Source: Qaidamihabitans albus (GTDB taxonomy: Bacteria; Actinomycetota; Actinomycetes; Mycobacteriales; Pseudonocardiaceae). Taken from it: a stretch of DNA of 63,177 bases. Below are positions 43,552 through 51,400 of the stretch, in pieces. Positions within the stretch are counted from its first letter, which is position 1; each line of letters starts with the position of its first letter. Both the position numbers and the translations under genes were made by a program. The notes under the pieces are model-generated. The model was not told the origin of the DNA, did not search any database, and was given only the letters and a program-made list of their open reading frames with translations. The stretch spans positions 1 to 63,177 of the forward strand of contig NZ_JAEHOB010000024.1 in NCBI RefSeq assembly GCF_016464705.1. The letters are read 5' to 3'.

Positions 43552-43826
43552 GTGGCCGATTGTTCCAAAGCGGCACGGTGGCGCCCGCCCCGCCCGTGCC
43601 GTTCGCCGGGCGTCCTGTCCGCGGCGGCTCCCGGACCAGGCCGGTACGGGCGGTAGCGGCGCCGGGTCACCGCCGGACACGACCACTGACGCCGGTCGCC
43701 CGGTAGAGTGAGATGTGACACGGCACACCGCGTATGGGTGGTCGAGCGGCACCCTATACCAGCCCACCGGGCGGCAATGCGCACATGTGCCGTGCATTGA
43801 AGCCATCTATTAGCCAAGATGTTCTC

Positions 43827-46100
43827 GTGGCTCAACCGACCCAGCTGAACGCGACCGAGCAGGACACCCTGGTCAAGCAGATCGGCCTCGCCTTGCTGCG
43901 GGCCGCCCCGCGCGACTGGCGGCGGGTGATCGCGGAGTACCGCGCGGTAGGGAGGTACCACGAACTGACCGGGGAGATCGTCACCGCCGACGGCTCGACC
44001 CAGGAGTGGGTGGCGACGCACGACATCGCGACCCTCTTCGGCAGGCTCCGCGCCGGGATGTACCGCGAGGGCCGGGGCACCTGGTTCAACGCCCGTTACC
44101 AGCTGGATCACCCGTCCAGCTACAACCTCGAGTACGACCGTGAGGAGCCGCGGTGGGACCTCATGCCGCCGCCGCAGGCCTACGCGGACGAGCTGCGCAT
44201 GTTCCCGCGCAGCGAGGACAACGTGCCCGACTGGCTGATGCGCCGGATGTCCGGCCTCGGTCCGGAGCGGCCGGGACCACGGTTCCGGATGGCCCGGATC
44301 TTCGACGGCGCCGGGCCGAACGGCCGCCCGGTCATCAACCGGCCGGAACTCGACGCCGAGGAGCAGGACCGGCTGCTCGACTACCTCGACGGCGCGCCCG
44401 TGGTGCTGCCGGGCCGCGGTTACGACCTCGACCGGCTGGCGAGCACCACGGAGAGCACCGTCCCGATCGCCTTCCACAGCGACGGCGTGTGGATCTGGCC
44501 CGCGGCCGTCAACTACTACCTGCGGGAGTACGGCGTCGCACCGGAGCCGGACCTCGTCCAGCACATCCGCGCCGCCGGGTTCAGCATCCCGGACGTGCCG
44601 GAGCCGGTGCGGCAGGCCGCGTCGGCGCACATCACCAGGGGCGGGCCGCCGCAGCAGCGTCCCGGCCCGCCGGCGATGGCCGAGCCGGAGCCGCCGCCTG
44701 AGGAGCCGCAGGCGCGGGAGGAGGAGCCGCCGTTCGAGGAGGAGTTCGCGCAGACCGACGCGGAGCTCACCCAGTTCGCTGCACCGCCGCAGTACGACGA
44801 GCCCTACCCCGGTGAGCTGGAGGACGCCGGTGAGCACACCGACGTCGAGGACACCGGGCCGGTGGAGCAGGCCACCACGTACACGCCCGTTCCCGACCTT
44901 GCCGGTGGGCCGCCGACGACCATCACCTCGCCGCCGCCACCGCCGGTCACCCAGCATGCCGTGCAGGACCCACCGGCAGGGGACGAGGAGCCGGACGAGC
45001 CGCCGGTGGCCGAGCAGGAGACCGACCAGCGGCCCATTCCCGGCCGCGACCAGCTCGACCTCGACGAAAGTAGCCCGCCGACCCCGCCGACCCCGCCGAC
45101 GCAGTACTCGCCAGGACCGCACTCGCCAGGACCGCCCCCCGCGCCCGACGAGCCGGTACTCGACCGGCTGGAGGACCGGCTCGCGGAGCTGGGGGTGCCG
45201 GAGTCGGCCTACCGGATCGGTGAGCCCGCCGATCGCGGCTGGAGCATCGAGGAGGTCGCGGAGGGCTGGCGGGTCGGCTGGTACGACGGTGAGCTGACCA
45301 GCACGGCAGTGTTCGGCGACGCCGAGGACGCCGCCGCGTTCATGCTGGGCAAGGTGCTGCTGATGCCGGAGGGCGCCCGCGACCCGCAGCAGCCGCGGCC
45401 CGCCCCGGCCGGGAGCCGCGCGGACCCGGCTGCGGCACCGCCCGCACCCCCGGCGCAACCGGCCCAGTCGCCCCCGCTACCCCCGGTGCCGCAGCGCCCG
45501 GTGACGGCGACGCTGTCGCCGGAGATGGCGACGGGCGTCCGGCCACCGGCCCGGGAGTCCGCCCCGGCGGAGCCGCCCGCGCGGCCCGCCGCCGCACGCG
45601 AGGAGCAGGCCGGTGCCGGCGCGCCCCGCGGTGCACCGATGGCCGCGCCCGCGGCCCCGCGCCCGGCACCACAGGCTCCCCCGCGCCGGGGCGAGGGCGG
45701 GCGGCCCGGTCAGGACAACCAGGAGCAGCGGCAGCCGGGCGGACAGCAGTGGCCGATCCAGCCGATGGCCGGTGAGCCGCCGCTCACGCTGTTCCGCGGC
45801 AAGGAGCTGCGCGAACTGCCCGCGGGGAGCGAGCTGGACCGCTTCGGTGGGCCGAACGGCAATCTCACCTACGCGGCGGGCACGCCGTTCGAGGAGCGGT
45901 CACTGGTCCCGGAATGGGTGAGCAGGCCGTATCACGTCTACCGCGTGCAGCGTCCGCTGGAGGCGCTGGCCGGGGTCGCGATCCCCTGGTTCAACCAGCC
46001 CGGCGGCGGTGCCGCCTACCTGCTGCCCGCGTCGATCGAGGAGCTCCTCGCCGAAGGTGACCTGATCGAGCTGGAACCGGGCGAGCCGCCCATCGACTGA
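43827..46100 (+). CDS. TNT-domain NAD glycohydrolase-like protein with N-terminal YezG-like domain
   Basis: 757-residue multidomain protein without signal peptide. Residues about 5-110 (QIGLALLRAAPRDWRRV ... GKGTWF-like segment RGTWFNARY) resemble YezG-type immunity domains. A second globular region covers about 110-250. A Pro/Glu-rich linker (about 265-420) leads to a small domain (about 430-510). After another Pro-rich linker comes a C-terminal domain (about 660-750) similar to the tuberculosis necrotizing toxin, with AGTPFEERSLVPEW and PWFNQPGGGAAY, where Q724 matches the NAD-site glutamine of TNT. The GTG at 43827 is chosen because it opens the conserved region; no good ribosome site is visible. 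It is convergent with the pentapeptide gene. Confidence 0.85.
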   Translation: MAQPTQLNATEQDTLVKQIGLALLRAAPRDWRRVIAEYRAVGRYHELTGEIVTADGSTQEWVATHDIATLFGRLRAGMYREGRGTWFNARYQLDHPSSYNLEYDREEPRWDLMPPPQAYADELRMFPRSEDNVPDWLMRRMSGLGPERPGPRFRMARIFDGAGPNGRPVINRPELDAEEQDRLLDYLDGAPVVLPGRGYDLDRLASTTESTVPIAFHSDGVWIWPAAVNYYLREYGVAPEPDLVQHIRAAGFSIPDVPEPVRQAASAHITRGGPPQQRPGPPAMAEPEPPPEEPQAREEEPPFEEEFAQTDAELTQFAAPPQYDEPYPGELEDAGEHTDVEDTGPVEQATTYTPVPDLAGGPPTTITSPPPPPVTQHAVQDPPAGDEEPDEPPVAEQETDQRPIPGRDQLDLDESSPPTPPTPPTQYSPGPHSPGPPPAPDEPVLDRLEDRLAELGVPESAYRIGEPADRGWSIEEVAEGWRVGWYDGELTSTAVFGDAEDAAAFMLGKVLLMPEGARDPQQPRPAPAGSRADPAAAPPAPPAQPAQSPPLPPVPQRPVTATLSPEMATGVRPPARESAPAEPPARPAAAREEQAGAGAPRGAPMAAPAAPRPAPQAPPRRGEGGRPGQDNQEQRQPGGQQWPIQPMAGEPPLTLFRGKELRELPAGSELDRFGGPNGNLTYAAGTPFEERSLVPEWVSRPYHVYRVQRPLEALAGVAIPWFNQPGGGAAYLLPASIEELLAEGDLIELEPGEPPID

Positions 46101-46125: not shown

Positions 46126-46719
46126 TCAGTGCACGACGAGGCCGTGCGCGGCGGCATAGGCGACCGCCGTGTCCAGGTCGACGTGTGCACCGGTGAACTC
46201 GGCGTGCCGGAGCCCGTCGGCGTCCAGCCGGGCGCCACGCAGGTCGGCGCCGAGGAGTTTCGTGCCGCGCAGCCGCGCCGCGGTCAGGTCGGCGCCGCGC
46301 AGATCGGCGTCGGTGAGGTCGGCATCGGTGAGGTTGGCCTCGGCGAAACGCAGCCCGGAGAGATCGCATTTCTTGAGGACGGCGCCGCCGAGCGAGGCGA
46401 GGGAGAGGTCGCAGTCCCGCAGCGTGATGGGGCGCATCCGGCAACCCACGAACGACGTGCCGAGCAGTGAGCAGCCGGTCCACTCGGTGTCGCCGAGAAC
46501 GGTCCTGTTGAACCTGCACGACCGGAACGCCGACGCGCGGTGCCGCGACTCCCCGAGGTCGGCGCGGGTGAAGTCGCACTCGTCGAACGTGCAGCCCGCG
46601 GTGACCAGGCCCCGCAGATCGGCCTCGGTGAAGTCGCAGCGCACGAACTGGCGTTTCTCCCACCGCGCCCCGGGCAGCACGGCGTCGCGGTAGTCCTCGT
46701 TCACCTCCGGCTCGGTCAT
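46126..46719 (-). CDS. Pentapeptide-repeat protein
   Basis: 197-residue protein built mainly of A(D/N)Lxx repeats (FTEADLRG, FTRADLGE, ANLTDADLTDADLRGADLTAARL and so on, spanning about residues 25-180) that form a right-handed quadrilateral beta-helix. Family members include gyrase-protecting proteins such as MfpA and Qnr, but also many unrelated ones. It starts 34 bp after the reverse transcriptase stop on the same strand and is probably co-transcribed with the retron. There is no transmembrane segment. Confidence 0.93.
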   Translation of the reverse strand: MTEPEVNEDYRDAVLPGARWEKRQFVRCDFTEADLRGLVTAGCTFDECDFTRADLGESRHRASAFRSCRFNRTVLGDTEWTGCSLLGTSFVGCRMRPITLRDCDLSLASLGGAVLKKCDLSGLRFAEANLTDADLTDADLRGADLTAARLRGTKLLGADLRGARLDADGLRHAEFTGAHVDLDTAVAYAAAHGLVVH

Positions 46720-46753
46720 CGGTCGAGCCTGGCACAACGCGGGACCGGCCGGA

Positions 46754-48216
46754 TCACCAGGCGATGCGGTAGAACATGGCCCGCAGCCGCGCGGCCCGTA
46801 CCGGGTGGGTGGCACCGATCCAGGCGATCCTGCCGAGCAGGTGGGCCCGGTAGTCCGGGTGTCCGTGCCGGTTCTGGGTCTCGGGCCCGGCGCGCAGGCA
46901 GTTGTGCAGCGTGGCGCGCAGCGCGTCGTACTCCTCGCGTGGCGCGGCGGGCGAGGAGTTGACGACGAGGCCCGCGACGCGCTGGCGCTGGTGCGCCCCG
47001 GCGATCGACGTCTTCGACTCGCGTACGCGGAATCCCTCCCCCCCCCCCCGGCGATCCGGCGGACCCCGGGCAGCAGCCGGTGCAGCGGCAGGCTCGCGGC
47101 CCCGGAGAAGGCCAGGTCATCCGCGTAGCGCGTGTAGGAGGCGCCGAGCGACCTGGCCAGTCCGGCGAGCCGCACGTCCACGTGGTGCGCCACGGCGTTG
47201 GCGACCGCGGGCGAGGACGGCGCGCCCTGCGGCAGGTGCGCGCCGGCGAGCCGGTGCAGCAGCCTGCGATGCGCCGGATCACCGTGCCCCGCCGGGGCCC
47301 GGCCGAGCACGTCGACCGGAGCGGCGGTGGTGAGCAGTCCGGCGAGTGCGGCCGCCACGGCGGGCGGGTAACCGGCGAGGCGTAGCAGGCCGCGGACCCG
47401 GGCAGCCGACACGGCAGCGAAGAATCCCTCCAGGTCCATGCGGACGACGAGCGCCCGCCCGGCGTGCGGTGCGGCACAGGTGGCCGCCGAACGCCCCGGC
47501 CGGAAGCCGTGGGCCACGTCGTGCACCGGCAGCGCCGCGAGGACGTGCCGGGCGACTCTGCGCTGCAGCTCGGCCAGCCGCGGTTTCGGCTGTTCCAGCA
47601 ACCGCACGCCGCCGGCGCGGGTGGGCACCCAGCGATGGCGGTAGTGCCGCAACGGCGTGCCGGCCCGCCGGTTCCACCCGCCGGTGTCGGCGAACCAGTC
47701 CAGCTCGCCGGGGGTCAGGTCCAGCGCGAGCGCGCACTCCGCGGCCGTCCGCCAGCGCGGCACGTCCCACCGCCACACCGGCATCGGTGGCAGCAGGGGC
47801 ATCGGGGAGCGGCCCGCACCGGGCAGGGTGCGCACGGGCAGCGGCGGTGCCAGCCGGATCGACGAGGCGACCCGGCCGATGTCGTCGGGAGGCCCGCTCG
47901 GGTACCTGTGCACGAGCCGGGCGGCGAGCTCGTCCGCGTCATCGGCGTCCAGCAGGGTGCGCCGGGTGAGCCGCGCGGCGAGCTCGCGACGGTCCCACGG
48001 TCCCGGCAGCGCGACCGTGGCCAGGTCGAGTGCCTGGTGGTCGCGCTGTTCCACCCGCCGGCGGCGCCGTCGGCGCGCACGGCCCCGCCAGTCGAGCGGC
48101 TGGTTCTCGTCGCCGCTCCCGGCACCCGTGTCGGCGCTGCCGGCACTGTCAGCACTGCCAGCACTACCGGCACGATCACCGTTGTCGTCGCAGCGGTCGC
48201 CGCCACCGGGATTCAC
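46754..48216 (-). pseudogene. Retron-type reverse transcriptase, frame broken at a C tract
   Basis: The protein is 487 residues once one base is added to the C tract at 47038-47049; as written the frame shifts after LLPGVRRIAGG. It has an N-terminal region of about 155 residues, then the reverse transcriptase domain: HGFRPGRS (about 236), motif 3 MDLEGFF (D261), LPQGAPSSP (328-336) and the catalytic YADD (364-367). After the tract the correct frame reads EGFRVRESKTSIAG, RQRVAGLVVNSSP and a normal C-terminus ending FYRIAW. Retron hallmarks appear as CAAPH (for NAxxH) and VAG (for VTG). The GTG at 48216 follows GAGGT by 8 nt. Length resembles the Myxococcus Mx162 enzyme. It is probably functional if the tract is misread; otherwise it is phase-variable or inactive. 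Confidence 0.88.
47038..47049. repeat. 12-base homopolymer C tract inside the reverse transcriptase gene
   Basis: Twelve consecutive C on the plus strand. With 13 or 10 bases the reverse transcriptase frame is continuous (RIAGGG-EGFRVRES). It may be a slippage site for phase variation, or a base-calling error. Confidence 0.9.
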
Positions 48217-48245
48217 CGGGCGGACCTCGTGACGTGGCCGAGGTG

Positions 48246-48400
48246 GGCGATGGGGAGGTGACCTCTTCTCCGTTCTTCCGCGCGCTCGGGCCACGCGAAG
48301 CATGCCGCCGCGCGTGGGGCGCCGTGCCTGTCCGATGTCGAGCTCCCCGGGGTTGCCCCGGAGTGGGTGGGTCCTCCCACCGGCTCACTTCCCCATCGCC
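48246..48400 (-). ncRNA. Candidate retron msr-msd RNA
   Basis: 155-nt region directly upstream of the reverse transcriptase gene. The a1 arm GGCGATGGGGAAGTGA (48400-48385) pairs with the a2 arm TCACCTCCCCATCGCC (48261-48246), 15 of 16 positions. Immediately after a1 comes GC, giving the AGC context in which the branching guanosine (48384) is expected. The msr part holds two hairpins, GGTGGG-AGGA-CCCACC (48381-48366) and CCGGGG-CAA-CCCCGG (48361-48347). The msd part holds CCACGCG-n13-CGCGTGG (48317-48291). a2 ends 29 nt before the GTG start. This order matches experimentally known retrons. Confidence 0.82.
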
Positions 48401-48435
48401 GCACGACACCGACCGTAACCGGTACTCCGGCGAAC

Positions 48436-51400
48436 TCACTGGAAATCCCGGGATTTCGACGTGATCCGCATGGGCAGATGCTGCAACCGGTCGGCGCGCA
48501 CGTTCACGACCCCGTCGGCACGCTCGACGACACCGCGGACCAGCAACGCCGGGCTGGATCGGGCGACGCGGTGGTACCGGCGCCACAGCCCCGCGGAGCA
48601 CACGACGTTGACCATGCCCGTCTCATCCTCGATGTTGAGGAACGTGATGCCGCCCGCGGTGGCGGGCCGTTGCCGGTGGGTCACGGCCCCGCCGACGAGC
48701 ACCCGGCTGCCGTTCTCGGCCTCGTGCAGTCCTTCCGCGGTGACCACGCCCAGCCGGTCGAGCCGCTCTCGGATGAACTCGGTGGGGAAGCTGTCCGGGG
48801 AGACGCCGGTGGCCCACACGTCCGCCGCGGCGAGGTCGAGGTCGTCCATCCCGGGCAGGGTGGGCGCCACCCAGCCGACGGTGCTGCCCGGCAGCTTCTC
48901 GGGACGTTCCCCGGCGAGCGCGCCCGCCGCCCAGAGCGCCTTGCGCCGGTCCGGCTCGAAGCGGCCGAAGGCGCCCGCGGTGGCCAGCGCCTCGATCTGC
49001 GGTTTGGTCAGCCTCACCCGCCTGGCCACGTCCCCCATGCCCCGGAAGGGACCGCCGCTGTCCCGTTCGGCGACCAGCTCGTCCGCGAGCCGCCGGCCGA
49101 TCGTCCGCACCCCGGCGAGTCCGAGGCGTACCGCGAGCCCGGGGCCGGTTTCACCGAGCGGCTCCAGCGTCGGATACGAGAGGCTGACGTCGACGTCGGG
49201 GCCGCGGACGGTGACGCCGTGCCTGCGGGCGTCGGCCACCAGTGACTGTGGCGAGTAGAACCCCATGGGCTGGGCCCGCAGCAGCCCGGCGCAGAACGCC
49301 TCGGGGTGGTACCGCTTGAAGTACGCGCTGGCGAACACCAGGTAGGCGAAGCTCAGCGCGTGGCTCTCCGGGAAGCCGAAGTTGGCGAACGCCCGCATCT
49401 TCTCGAAGATGTGCGCGGCCATCGGCTCCTCGACGCCCTTGCGTGCGGCTCCGTCGTAGAACCGTTGCCGCAGGCGCTCCATCCGCCGTCCCGAGCGCTT
49501 GGATCCCATGGCGTGGCGCAGCTCGTCGGCCTCGGCGGCGGTGAAATCGGCGACGTCGAGGGCGATCTGCATCATCTGCTCCTGGAACAGCGGAACGCCC
49601 ATCGTCTTGCCGAGCGCGTTTTCCAGCAGCGGGTGGTCGAAGTTCCATTCCTCCCGGCCGGTGTAGCGCCGGATGTACGGGTGCACCGAGCCACCCTGGA
49701 TCGGCCCCGGCCGGATCAGCGCCACCTCGATCGCCAGGTCGTAGAACTTCTTGGGGGCCAGCCGGGGCAGGGTCGCGAGCTGCGCGCGGCTCTCCACCTG
49801 GAACACGCCGATCGCGTCCGCTCGCCGCAGCATCGCGTAGACCTCGTCGTCTTCGAGGTCCAGTCTTCCGAGGTCGATCTCCGTTCCCTTGTGCTCCCGC
49901 ACGAGGTCGAGCATGTAGTGCAGCGCGGAGAGCATGCCGAGCCCGAGCAGGTCGAACTTGACCAGCCCGACGGAAGCGCAGTCCTCCTTCTCCCACTGCA
50001 CGACGCTGCGGCCTCCCATCCGGGCCCACTCGACGGGGCAGACCTCGCTCACCGGGCGGTCGCAGATCACCATTCCGCCGGAGTGGATACCGAGGTGGCG
50101 CGGGAAGTCCTCCAGCGCGGCGGACAGTTCGAGGACCGGCTCCGGGATGTCGTGGTCGTGGTCGTGCTGGGTCTCGCGCAGCGGCCCCCACCGGTCGATC
50201 TGCTTGCTCCAGGCGTCCTGCTGCCCCGGCGAGTGGCCGAGCGCGCGGGCGGCGTCGCGCACGGCCGAACGCGCCCGGTAGGTGATCACGTTCGCCACCT
50301 GGGCCGCGCACAGCCTGCCGTGCTTGCGGTAGACGTACTGGATGGCCTCCTCCCTGCGATCGGACTCGATGTCCAGGTCGATGTCCGGGTAGCCGTCGCG
50401 GTCGGGGGCGAGGAAGCGCTCGAAGAGCAGTTTCCACCGCACCGAGTCGACCTTGGTGATTCCCAGCGCGTAGCAGACCGCGGAGTTGGCGGCCGATCCC
50501 CGGCCCTGGCAGAGGATGTCGCTGGTGCGGCAGAACTCCACGATGTCCCACACGATCAGGAAGTAGCCGGGGAACCCGAGCCGCTCGATGATGCCGAGCT
50601 CGTGCTCGATCTGGCGGTACGCCTCGGGGTTGTGTTCCTCGGGGCCGTACCGGGCCGCCGCGCCCAGGTAGGTCTGTTCCCGCAGGTAGCTCGCTTCCGT
50701 GTGACCTTCCGGTACGTCGAAGGGAGGCAGGTCCGGTGCGACGAGGTGCAGCTCGAACGCGCATTCCGTGCCGAGCAGCGCCGCCCGCTGCACCGCGCCG
50801 GGGTAGTGGGCGAACCGTTCGGCCATCTCCCGGCCCGAGCGCAGGTGCGCGGCACCGCTCGCGGGCAGCCAGCCCTCCATGTCGTCCAGCCCCCGGCGCG
50901 CCCTGATCGCCGCCAGTCCCGCCGCGAGCCGCCCGCGCCGCGGGGTCGCGTAGTGCGCCGCGCTGGTGGCGACGGTGGGCAGCCCCAGTTCGGCGGCGAG
51001 TGCGGCGAGCGCGTCGTTGTCCGTGCTGTCGGTGGGCCCGCCGTGGTCGGTCAGTTCGACGTACACGTTGTGCTCACCGAACCGCTCGGTCAGTTCCCGC
51101 ATCCGGACGGCCGCCGCCTCGGGCCCCCGCTCGGCGAGCGCGCGCCGGACGGCTCCCTTGCGGCAGCCGGTGAGCACGGCGCAGCTGCCCGCGACCTCGT
51201 CCGCGACGGCGTCCAGGTCGTACACCGGGCGCCCTTTCTCGGCGTGCCGCCCTGGCGCCGCCTTGCCGTCGTGCCCGGCCAGCTGCCCGGCCGTGATGGC
51301 CCGGCAGAGATTGGCGTACCCCTGCCGGCCCCGCGCGAGCAGCAGCAGATGCTCGCCCTCGGGGTCGGCGACCCCGTTCTGCGGGCCGGAGAGCCCCAGG

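Follow-up and report, generated by a model that had tools for sequence, protein, structure and literature searches.

The locus examined here raises the question of whether Qaidamihabitans albus, a member of the Pseudonocardiaceae, carries a retron and, if so, whether its copy is whole. The 63,177-nucleotide stretch of DNA that was analysed (hereafter the window) had been predicted to hold a retron, with a complete candidate msr-msd RNA lying upstream of a reverse transcriptase (RT) gene. With a probability of about 0.9, we conclude that the locus is a retron residing on the chromosome, one of a single-protein subfamily that occurs in Pseudonocardiaceae and, here and there, in other Actinomycetota, and that its RT would make branched msDNA. 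Retron identity is supported by covariation and by the co-occurrence of RNA and RT. The RNA is complete, as claimed, but the reading frame of the RT is interrupted in the assembly of the window's copy (Table 1).

The proposed RNA occupies a 155-nt region (48246-48400, minus strand), for which all of the originally predicted coordinates proved right. Its 16-bp a1/a2 inverted repeat pairs at 15 of 16 positions, as predicted (48400-48385 with 48261-48246), the single exception in the window's stem being an A.C mismatch. The AGC that had been placed directly after a1 corresponds to 48385-48383; A 48385 is the last paired base of a1, and G 48384 is therefore the first unpaired base. Two msr hairpins and one msd hairpin are present, as described in the prediction, and covariation supports this fold. 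The distance of 29 nt from the end of a2 to the GTG at 48216 was likewise correct. The region folds at -84.1 kcal/mol, compared with a shuffled mean of -69.1 (z -3.5), and none of 200 dinucleotide shuffles folds as well. An Rfam scan of the whole window gave no family at gathering level, and a scan of 48150-48500 gave no retron family at E ≤ 1; the lone Rfam match, to mir-140, scores 16.8 bits against a threshold of 70 and was taken as chance.

Table 1. Coordinates of the retron features and adjacent genes in the window, with the basis for each.
Feature	Position	Strand	Basis
DnaE2-type polymerase gene	ends 48436	-	Pfam PHP, DNA_pol3_alpha, finger, HHH_6
-10-like TAnnnT box (TACGGT), likely RNA promoter by inference	48412-48417	-	TAnnnT conservation before GAG
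a1 arm, msr-msd RNA	48385-48400	-	15/16 Watson-Crick pairs with a2; covariation in 33 and 21 sequences
Predicted branching G	48384	-	GAG invariant in 33/33 aligned rows; role inferred from known retrons
msr hairpin 1 (GGUGGG/CCCACC)	48366-48381	-	Fold; helix 2 of covariation tests
msr hairpin 2 (CUCCGGGGCAACCCCGGGG)	48345-48363	-	Most conserved helix; helix 3 of covariation tests
msd hairpin (apical hairpin 48294-48302)	48278-48317	-	Helices 4 and 5 of covariation tests
a2 arm, msr-msd RNA	48246-48261	-	Pairing with a1; covariation in both sequence sets
Retron RT, first part, in frame from GTG	47050-48216	-	CAAPH, MDLEGFF, LPQGAPSSP, YADD; PADLOC RT_other E 1.7e-118, RT_outgroup E 1.7e-109; Pfam RVT_1 E 7.2e-11
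G12 run, RT reading frame lost	47038-47049	-	Sequence; relatives' alignment; assembly-wide G-run count
Retron RT, C-terminal part (region Y, VAGLVVN), other frame, with stop	46754-47041	-	PADLOC RT_other E 2.2e-47
Pentapeptide-repeat protein gene, downstream of RT	46126-46719	-	Pfam Pentapeptide E 5.7e-28
Long proline-rich protein with C-terminal TNT domain, facing the pentapeptide gene	43734-46100	+	Pfam E 5.4e-31

Relatives of the locus are numerous, and the RNA structure was therefore open to a test by covariation, which it passed. The loci examined number 50, comprising 48 from a sample of the window's taxonomic family (the window's own included) together with L007 and L008. In 34 of these, credible arms emerged from an automatic a1/a2 scan, and in the other 16, by judgement, none did; 33 sequences were aligned, L051 being omitted by hand. 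In this 33-sequence set, picked by the a1/a2 scan, 13 of the 16 a1/a2 pairs are changed on both sides, and RNAalifold finds 33 pairs, 19 of which show compensatory change. With msr hairpin 1 added, both-side changes occur in 21 of 38 pairs, compared with 9.4 upon shuffling (0/500) and no more than 7 in slid controls, and the covariation score is 0.270, compared with 0.123 for shuffled and at most 0.069 for slid alignments.

Because selection by the a1/a2 scan favours pairing in helix 1, a covariance model was built, and 21 matches outside its training set were taken as a separate set. The model recovers the RNA in 15 of the 16 scan-negative loci as well as in L051, and finds no match in L067, the locus of a distant RT. 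The 21-sequence alignment, which takes in the partial L035 match and the remnants of G121 and G182, was fitted to the covariance model and hence leans towards it; here, 15 of the 16 a1/a2 pairs are changed on both sides. Over the whole structure, both-side changes affect 28 of 38 pairs (14.8 when shuffled, at most 13 when slid), with a covariation score of 0.378 (0.154 shuffled, at most 0.083 slid). Helix 3 (msr hairpin 2) is paired in 99.6% and 100% of cells in the 33 and 21 sequences, respectively; the weakest is helix 2 (msr hairpin 1), with 75.6% and 75.8% of cells paired and a register that is offset by one column from group to group. The check named for the original prediction was whether a1/a2 covaries among homologous loci; with that check now run, the retron reading survives.

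Immediately upstream of the RNA there is a conserved promoter-like box. In 45 of 48 loci (all but L035 and L067 being considered), the invariant GAG is preceded by a TAnnnT motif that begins 24-38 nt ahead of it, as against approximately 0.5% of slid control windows. The box holds in loci both with and without dnaE2 nearby; thus, transcription of the RNA is probably driven by a promoter of its own and would start near the 5' end of a1.

The RNA is also linked to the RT across genomes. Among 297 genomes of the Pseudonocardiaceae (own included; RT threshold E ≤ 1e-20), the RT is present in 48, the RNA in 49, and both in 47, the RNA lying at the RT in 47 of the 48 RT genomes, 32 of these 47 being in the model's training set. 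The RNA occurs without a counted RT in G121 and G182 only. A phylum-wide sample (396 genomes, own included) has the RT in five genomes and the RNA in four of the same five; in the four RT-bearing genomes other than that of the window, the RNA lies at the RT in three. An RT without an RNA match was seen in G131 of the family sample, the RT of which is distant (37% identity), and in G677 of the phylum-wide sample. At L067, the RT is retron-like but distant (37% identity), and a candidate inverted repeat of its own lies upstream. In genomes that lack the RT, six pentapeptide-gene loci were searched and none matched the RNA at E ≤ 1. Neither the RT, the RNA, nor the pentapeptide protein has a match in G020, which alone in the sample shares the window's genus. 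In the RT tree, rows are mostly grouped by genus, with g16 split, and the rows nearest to the window come from g15 and g41 (best identity 80%).

The protein itself belongs with retron RTs. Untyped RT_other and RT_outgroup are the top PADLOC models, followed by RT_XIII (E 9.9e-64), and all of the best 25 of 43 PADLOC matches bear retron RT names. The top solved chains are retron RTs, such as that of Ec86 (E 1.4e-18). No NCBIfam model exceeds its curated cut-off, the best being retron_St85 at 130.1 bits against 235 (E 9.7e-38), and Pfam identifies no domain besides RVT_1 in the window's RT parts. The C-terminal part shows at most 81% identity to relatives. Among 49 aligned relatives, YADD is present in 47; the NAxxH position reads xAxxH in all 49 (CAAPH in the window), with Asn in none; and the VTG position (VAG in the window) reads [VLI]AG in 35 and xTG in seven, with Gly in all 49. 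According to passages of a 2019 review, 2 of 16 validated retrons (Mx65 and Ec48) also lack the Asn of NAxxH, and 2 of the 16 also depart from VTG (PMC6868368).

Of 34 loci, 30 have an in-frame start codon no more than 50 nt past a2, the exceptions being L043, L049, L060, and L068. The start follows a2 by 7-10 nt, and the N-terminal extension is absent, in six loci of g16 and g26. A gap of ~600 nt inside one open frame divides the RT match of L062 (G009, Amycolatopsis arida), as if ~200 residues had been inserted between query residues 303 and 310.

These features would be combined as follows. A promoter just before a1 would drive a transcript comprising the msr-msd RNA and the downstream RT, and the RT would bind its own RNA via the msr hairpins and region Y. 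The a1/a2 stem would hold G 48384 in place, with cDNA starting at its 2'-OH, and the msd hairpin would be copied to give a branched RNA-DNA molecule; for the priming from G 48384 and the copying of the msd, the model draws on analogy with characterised retrons.

In the window, the RT is in frame from 48216 as far as the G12 run, and continues in another frame to the stop at 46754. The motifs CAAPH, VAG, and YADD of the original prediction are all present; CAAPH and YADD precede the break, but VAG follows it in a different reading frame, because the frame is lost at G12, and thus the RT is not one open frame here. By contrast with this copy, the YxDD and VTG columns share one open frame in 49 of 49 aligned relatives. 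Those relatives for which the alignment was printed have no G run at this position, and the longest homopolymer in the relatives' RT frames is 6. G runs of at least 11 occur at three places in the whole assembly; the other two (C9:1105-1124 and C13:1293-1303) both lie no more than 1.3 kb from the first base of their contig, which hints, weakly, at assembly trouble. Omega, calculated against five relatives by the Nei-Gojobori method using our own script, is 0.15-0.28 for the RT N core, which precedes the break, and 0.17-0.29 for the C part that follows it. Both parts show purifying selection, and therefore the break is either recent or an assembly error; such selection on the RT gene either persists today or ceased only very recently. 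The unshifted RT frame meets no stop and enters the pentapeptide gene, creating a 725-aa ORF (46126-48303, minus strand) that a gene finder could report as a false RT-pentapeptide fusion.

Decayed copies were identified in four relatives. G083 (L149) retains scraps of the RT C-terminus in a 244-nt dnaE2-pentapeptide spacer; its genus, g15, has intact copies in two other genomes. In G182 (L148:6032-6154), which has no RT match, a solo partial RNA remnant is flanked by dnaE2 and the pentapeptide gene. G121 has kept the RNA, but of the RT it has three pieces, all from the first half, and G175 (L035:2391-2553, minus strand) has kept the msd and a2, its a1 and msr being unrecognisable. Thus, decay recurs in the family.

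The neighbouring genes were surveyed as ORF clusters around the 50 loci, leaving out ORFs without a homologue in another locus. The polymerase gene upstream of the RNA is presumably dnaE2, and the core genes of this site (polymerase, pentapeptide, TNT-domain protein, UspA-like, and transporters; names partly by eye) were rejected as partners, as were genus-specific neighbour genes. Clusters c13 (ABC ATPases) and c11 occur in several genera at changing distances and were read as broad families; apart from these two, no neighbour was found to accompany the RT across contexts in the 50 loci. The linked or fused effector that characterises the typed tripartite retrons (I-XIII) was not found. A match to the TNT-domain protein lies beside the pentapeptide gene in 29 of 30 loci.

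The downstream pentapeptide gene seemed a candidate. A match on the same strand starts less than 60 nt from the RT stop in 17 of 50 RT loci (34 nt in the window) and at 339-493 nt from the RT in a further 3; in 30 of 50 loci, with flanks searched that were partly short, a downstream copy was not found. One of the 17 (L039) has a weak pentapeptide match, and its genome, G041, has none at E ≤ 1e-25. In the g17 loci L049, L059, L060, and L061, the pentapeptide match overlaps the RT stop or starts right at it, and the 2.9-6.9 kb examined upstream gave no match to dnaE2; L059 has a LacI-like gene upstream (named by eye). The gene is, however, far commoner than the RT (212 of 297 family genomes, compared with 48). 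When 30 loci around the gene were retrieved, the RT was present in 11; another 15 carry dnaE2 upstream but no RT match, one combines dnaE2 with the remnant of an RT, and in the last 3 the flank examined contains neither. The dnaE2-pentapeptide spacers of five RT-lacking loci measure 56, 74, 74, 115, and 712 nt, and positions in the other RT-lacking dnaE2 loci of the 15 imply spacers of up to ~1.2 kb. In G016 (g17), a LacI-like gene directly precedes the pentapeptide gene, with no RT match. Because the gene is so much commoner than the RT and is present without it, we regard it as a host gene beside which the retron often sits.

Several other explanations of the locus have to be weighed. A stable hairpin array ahead of any gene could serve as a regulatory leader or attenuator of that gene instead of as a retron RNA; here, however, the a1/a2 stem, which encloses 123 nt, covaries strongly, GAG is invariant in 33 of 33 sequences, and the RNA stays with the RT as the genomic context changes, and we consider the leader explanation very remote. 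That the RT is of another class (group II intron, DGR, or DRT) is scarcely credible: although weak group II (E 6.6e-9) and Drt2 (E 2.2e-5) matches exist and no NCBIfam model is over its cut-off, retron_St85 is matched far better in the same scan, and both the best 25 of 43 PADLOC matches and the best solved chains are retron RTs. It is a much more serious possibility, at somewhat below even odds, that the window's copy alone is a dead retron, the frame break having put its RT out of action recently, within a family prone to decay. The loss of frame at G12, the decayed copies in G083, G182, G121, and G175, and the mismatch in the window's a1/a2 stem are all consistent with inactivation. Set against these are the purifying selection on both RT parts relative to five relatives, the short branch of the window in the RT tree (0.13), the printed relatives without a G run here and with no RT homopolymer longer than 6, and, weakly, the hint of assembly trouble from the two other long G runs near the starts of C9 and C13.

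The remaining alternatives concern partners and function. The pentapeptide-repeat protein of the window (46126-46719) is improbable as the retron's effector; the short same-strand spacing in 17 of 50 RT loci and the pairing with the RT in a second context without dnaE2 (L049 and L059-L061) speak for such a role, but the excess of pentapeptide genomes over RT genomes, the 15 of 30 loci with dnaE2 and no RT match, the G016 copy behind a LacI-like gene, and the 30 RT loci in which no downstream copy was found (some flanks being short) all argue against it. As an effector in general, the protein was rejected, since its gene is far commoner and follows dnaE2 or a LacI-like gene without the RT. With no effector gene tied to the family, either no toxin is needed, the toxin is unlinked, or the RT's own N-terminal extension, where present, takes this part. 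For the retron of a single-protein subfamily, the likeliest guess is that the msDNA would act against phages, either by way of the RT complex or together with a partner encoded elsewhere; the one pointer to the alternative, a role in DNA damage, is the neighbouring polymerase gene in part of the family. A fuller version of this alternative is a toxin-less retron subfamily that is maintained by selection across an actinobacterial family, in many lineages directly ahead of a pentapeptide gene and often next to a DnaE2-type polymerase gene, with msDNA acting in DNA damage tolerance and the pentapeptide protein (a possible DNA mimic) recruited in some lineages; we judge it unlikely, though less so than the effector role of the pentapeptide protein in the window.

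Retrons of this kind are not without precedent. PADLOC has RTs of this type, and putative actinobacterial retrons are already recorded in surveys, as noted in passages of the 2019 review, according to which validated retron RTs came at that time from Gamma- and Deltaproteobacteria only (PMC6868368). Ported retrons are reported, in an excerpt of a further source, to work in Mycobacterium smegmatis (PMC12262390). Our literature search, confined to one library, returned nothing on retrons of Streptomyces together with Amycolatopsis, nothing joining a retron with dnaE2, and, judged from titles, no retron system with a pentapeptide protein. What is new here is therefore at most the RNA family and the host group, as viewed apart from published retron ncRNA sets. 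The actinobacterial family (48 of 297 genomes) offers an RNA backed by covariation, a model with which to search for it, and numerous relatives with intact copies for testing; because no effector was found, it bears on what retrons without a linked toxin do. Furthermore, an actinobacterial RT-RNA pair could serve DNA production in high-GC hosts.

Among known systems, the best PADLOC models for both RT parts (RT_other and RT_outgroup) are models of the RT only. The type XIII retron RT (RT_XIII) ranks third with a far lower score, and no companion gene was recognised here. Retron-Ec86 (Retron-Eco1), the top solved chain, has a similar RT core and the same a1/a2 and msr-msd order; unlike the present family, in which none was found, it has an effector and an accessory gene. 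Two further comparators are retrons covered in passages of the 2019 review (PMC6868368): Mx65 (Retron-Mxa2) branches at a GAGC and has another residue in place of the Asn of NAxxH, the RTs of both Mx65 and Mx162 (Retron-Mxa1) are extended at the N-terminus, and vertical inheritance is assumed for Mx162. The present family may be compared with Mx65 in the GAG site and the missing Asn, with both in the N-terminal extension, and with Mx162 in the grouping of RT rows mostly by genus, a likeness drawn from those descriptions and not from RT sequence; it differs from the two in that they are myxobacterial, and thus of a different phylum, and in that some members here have no N-terminal extension.
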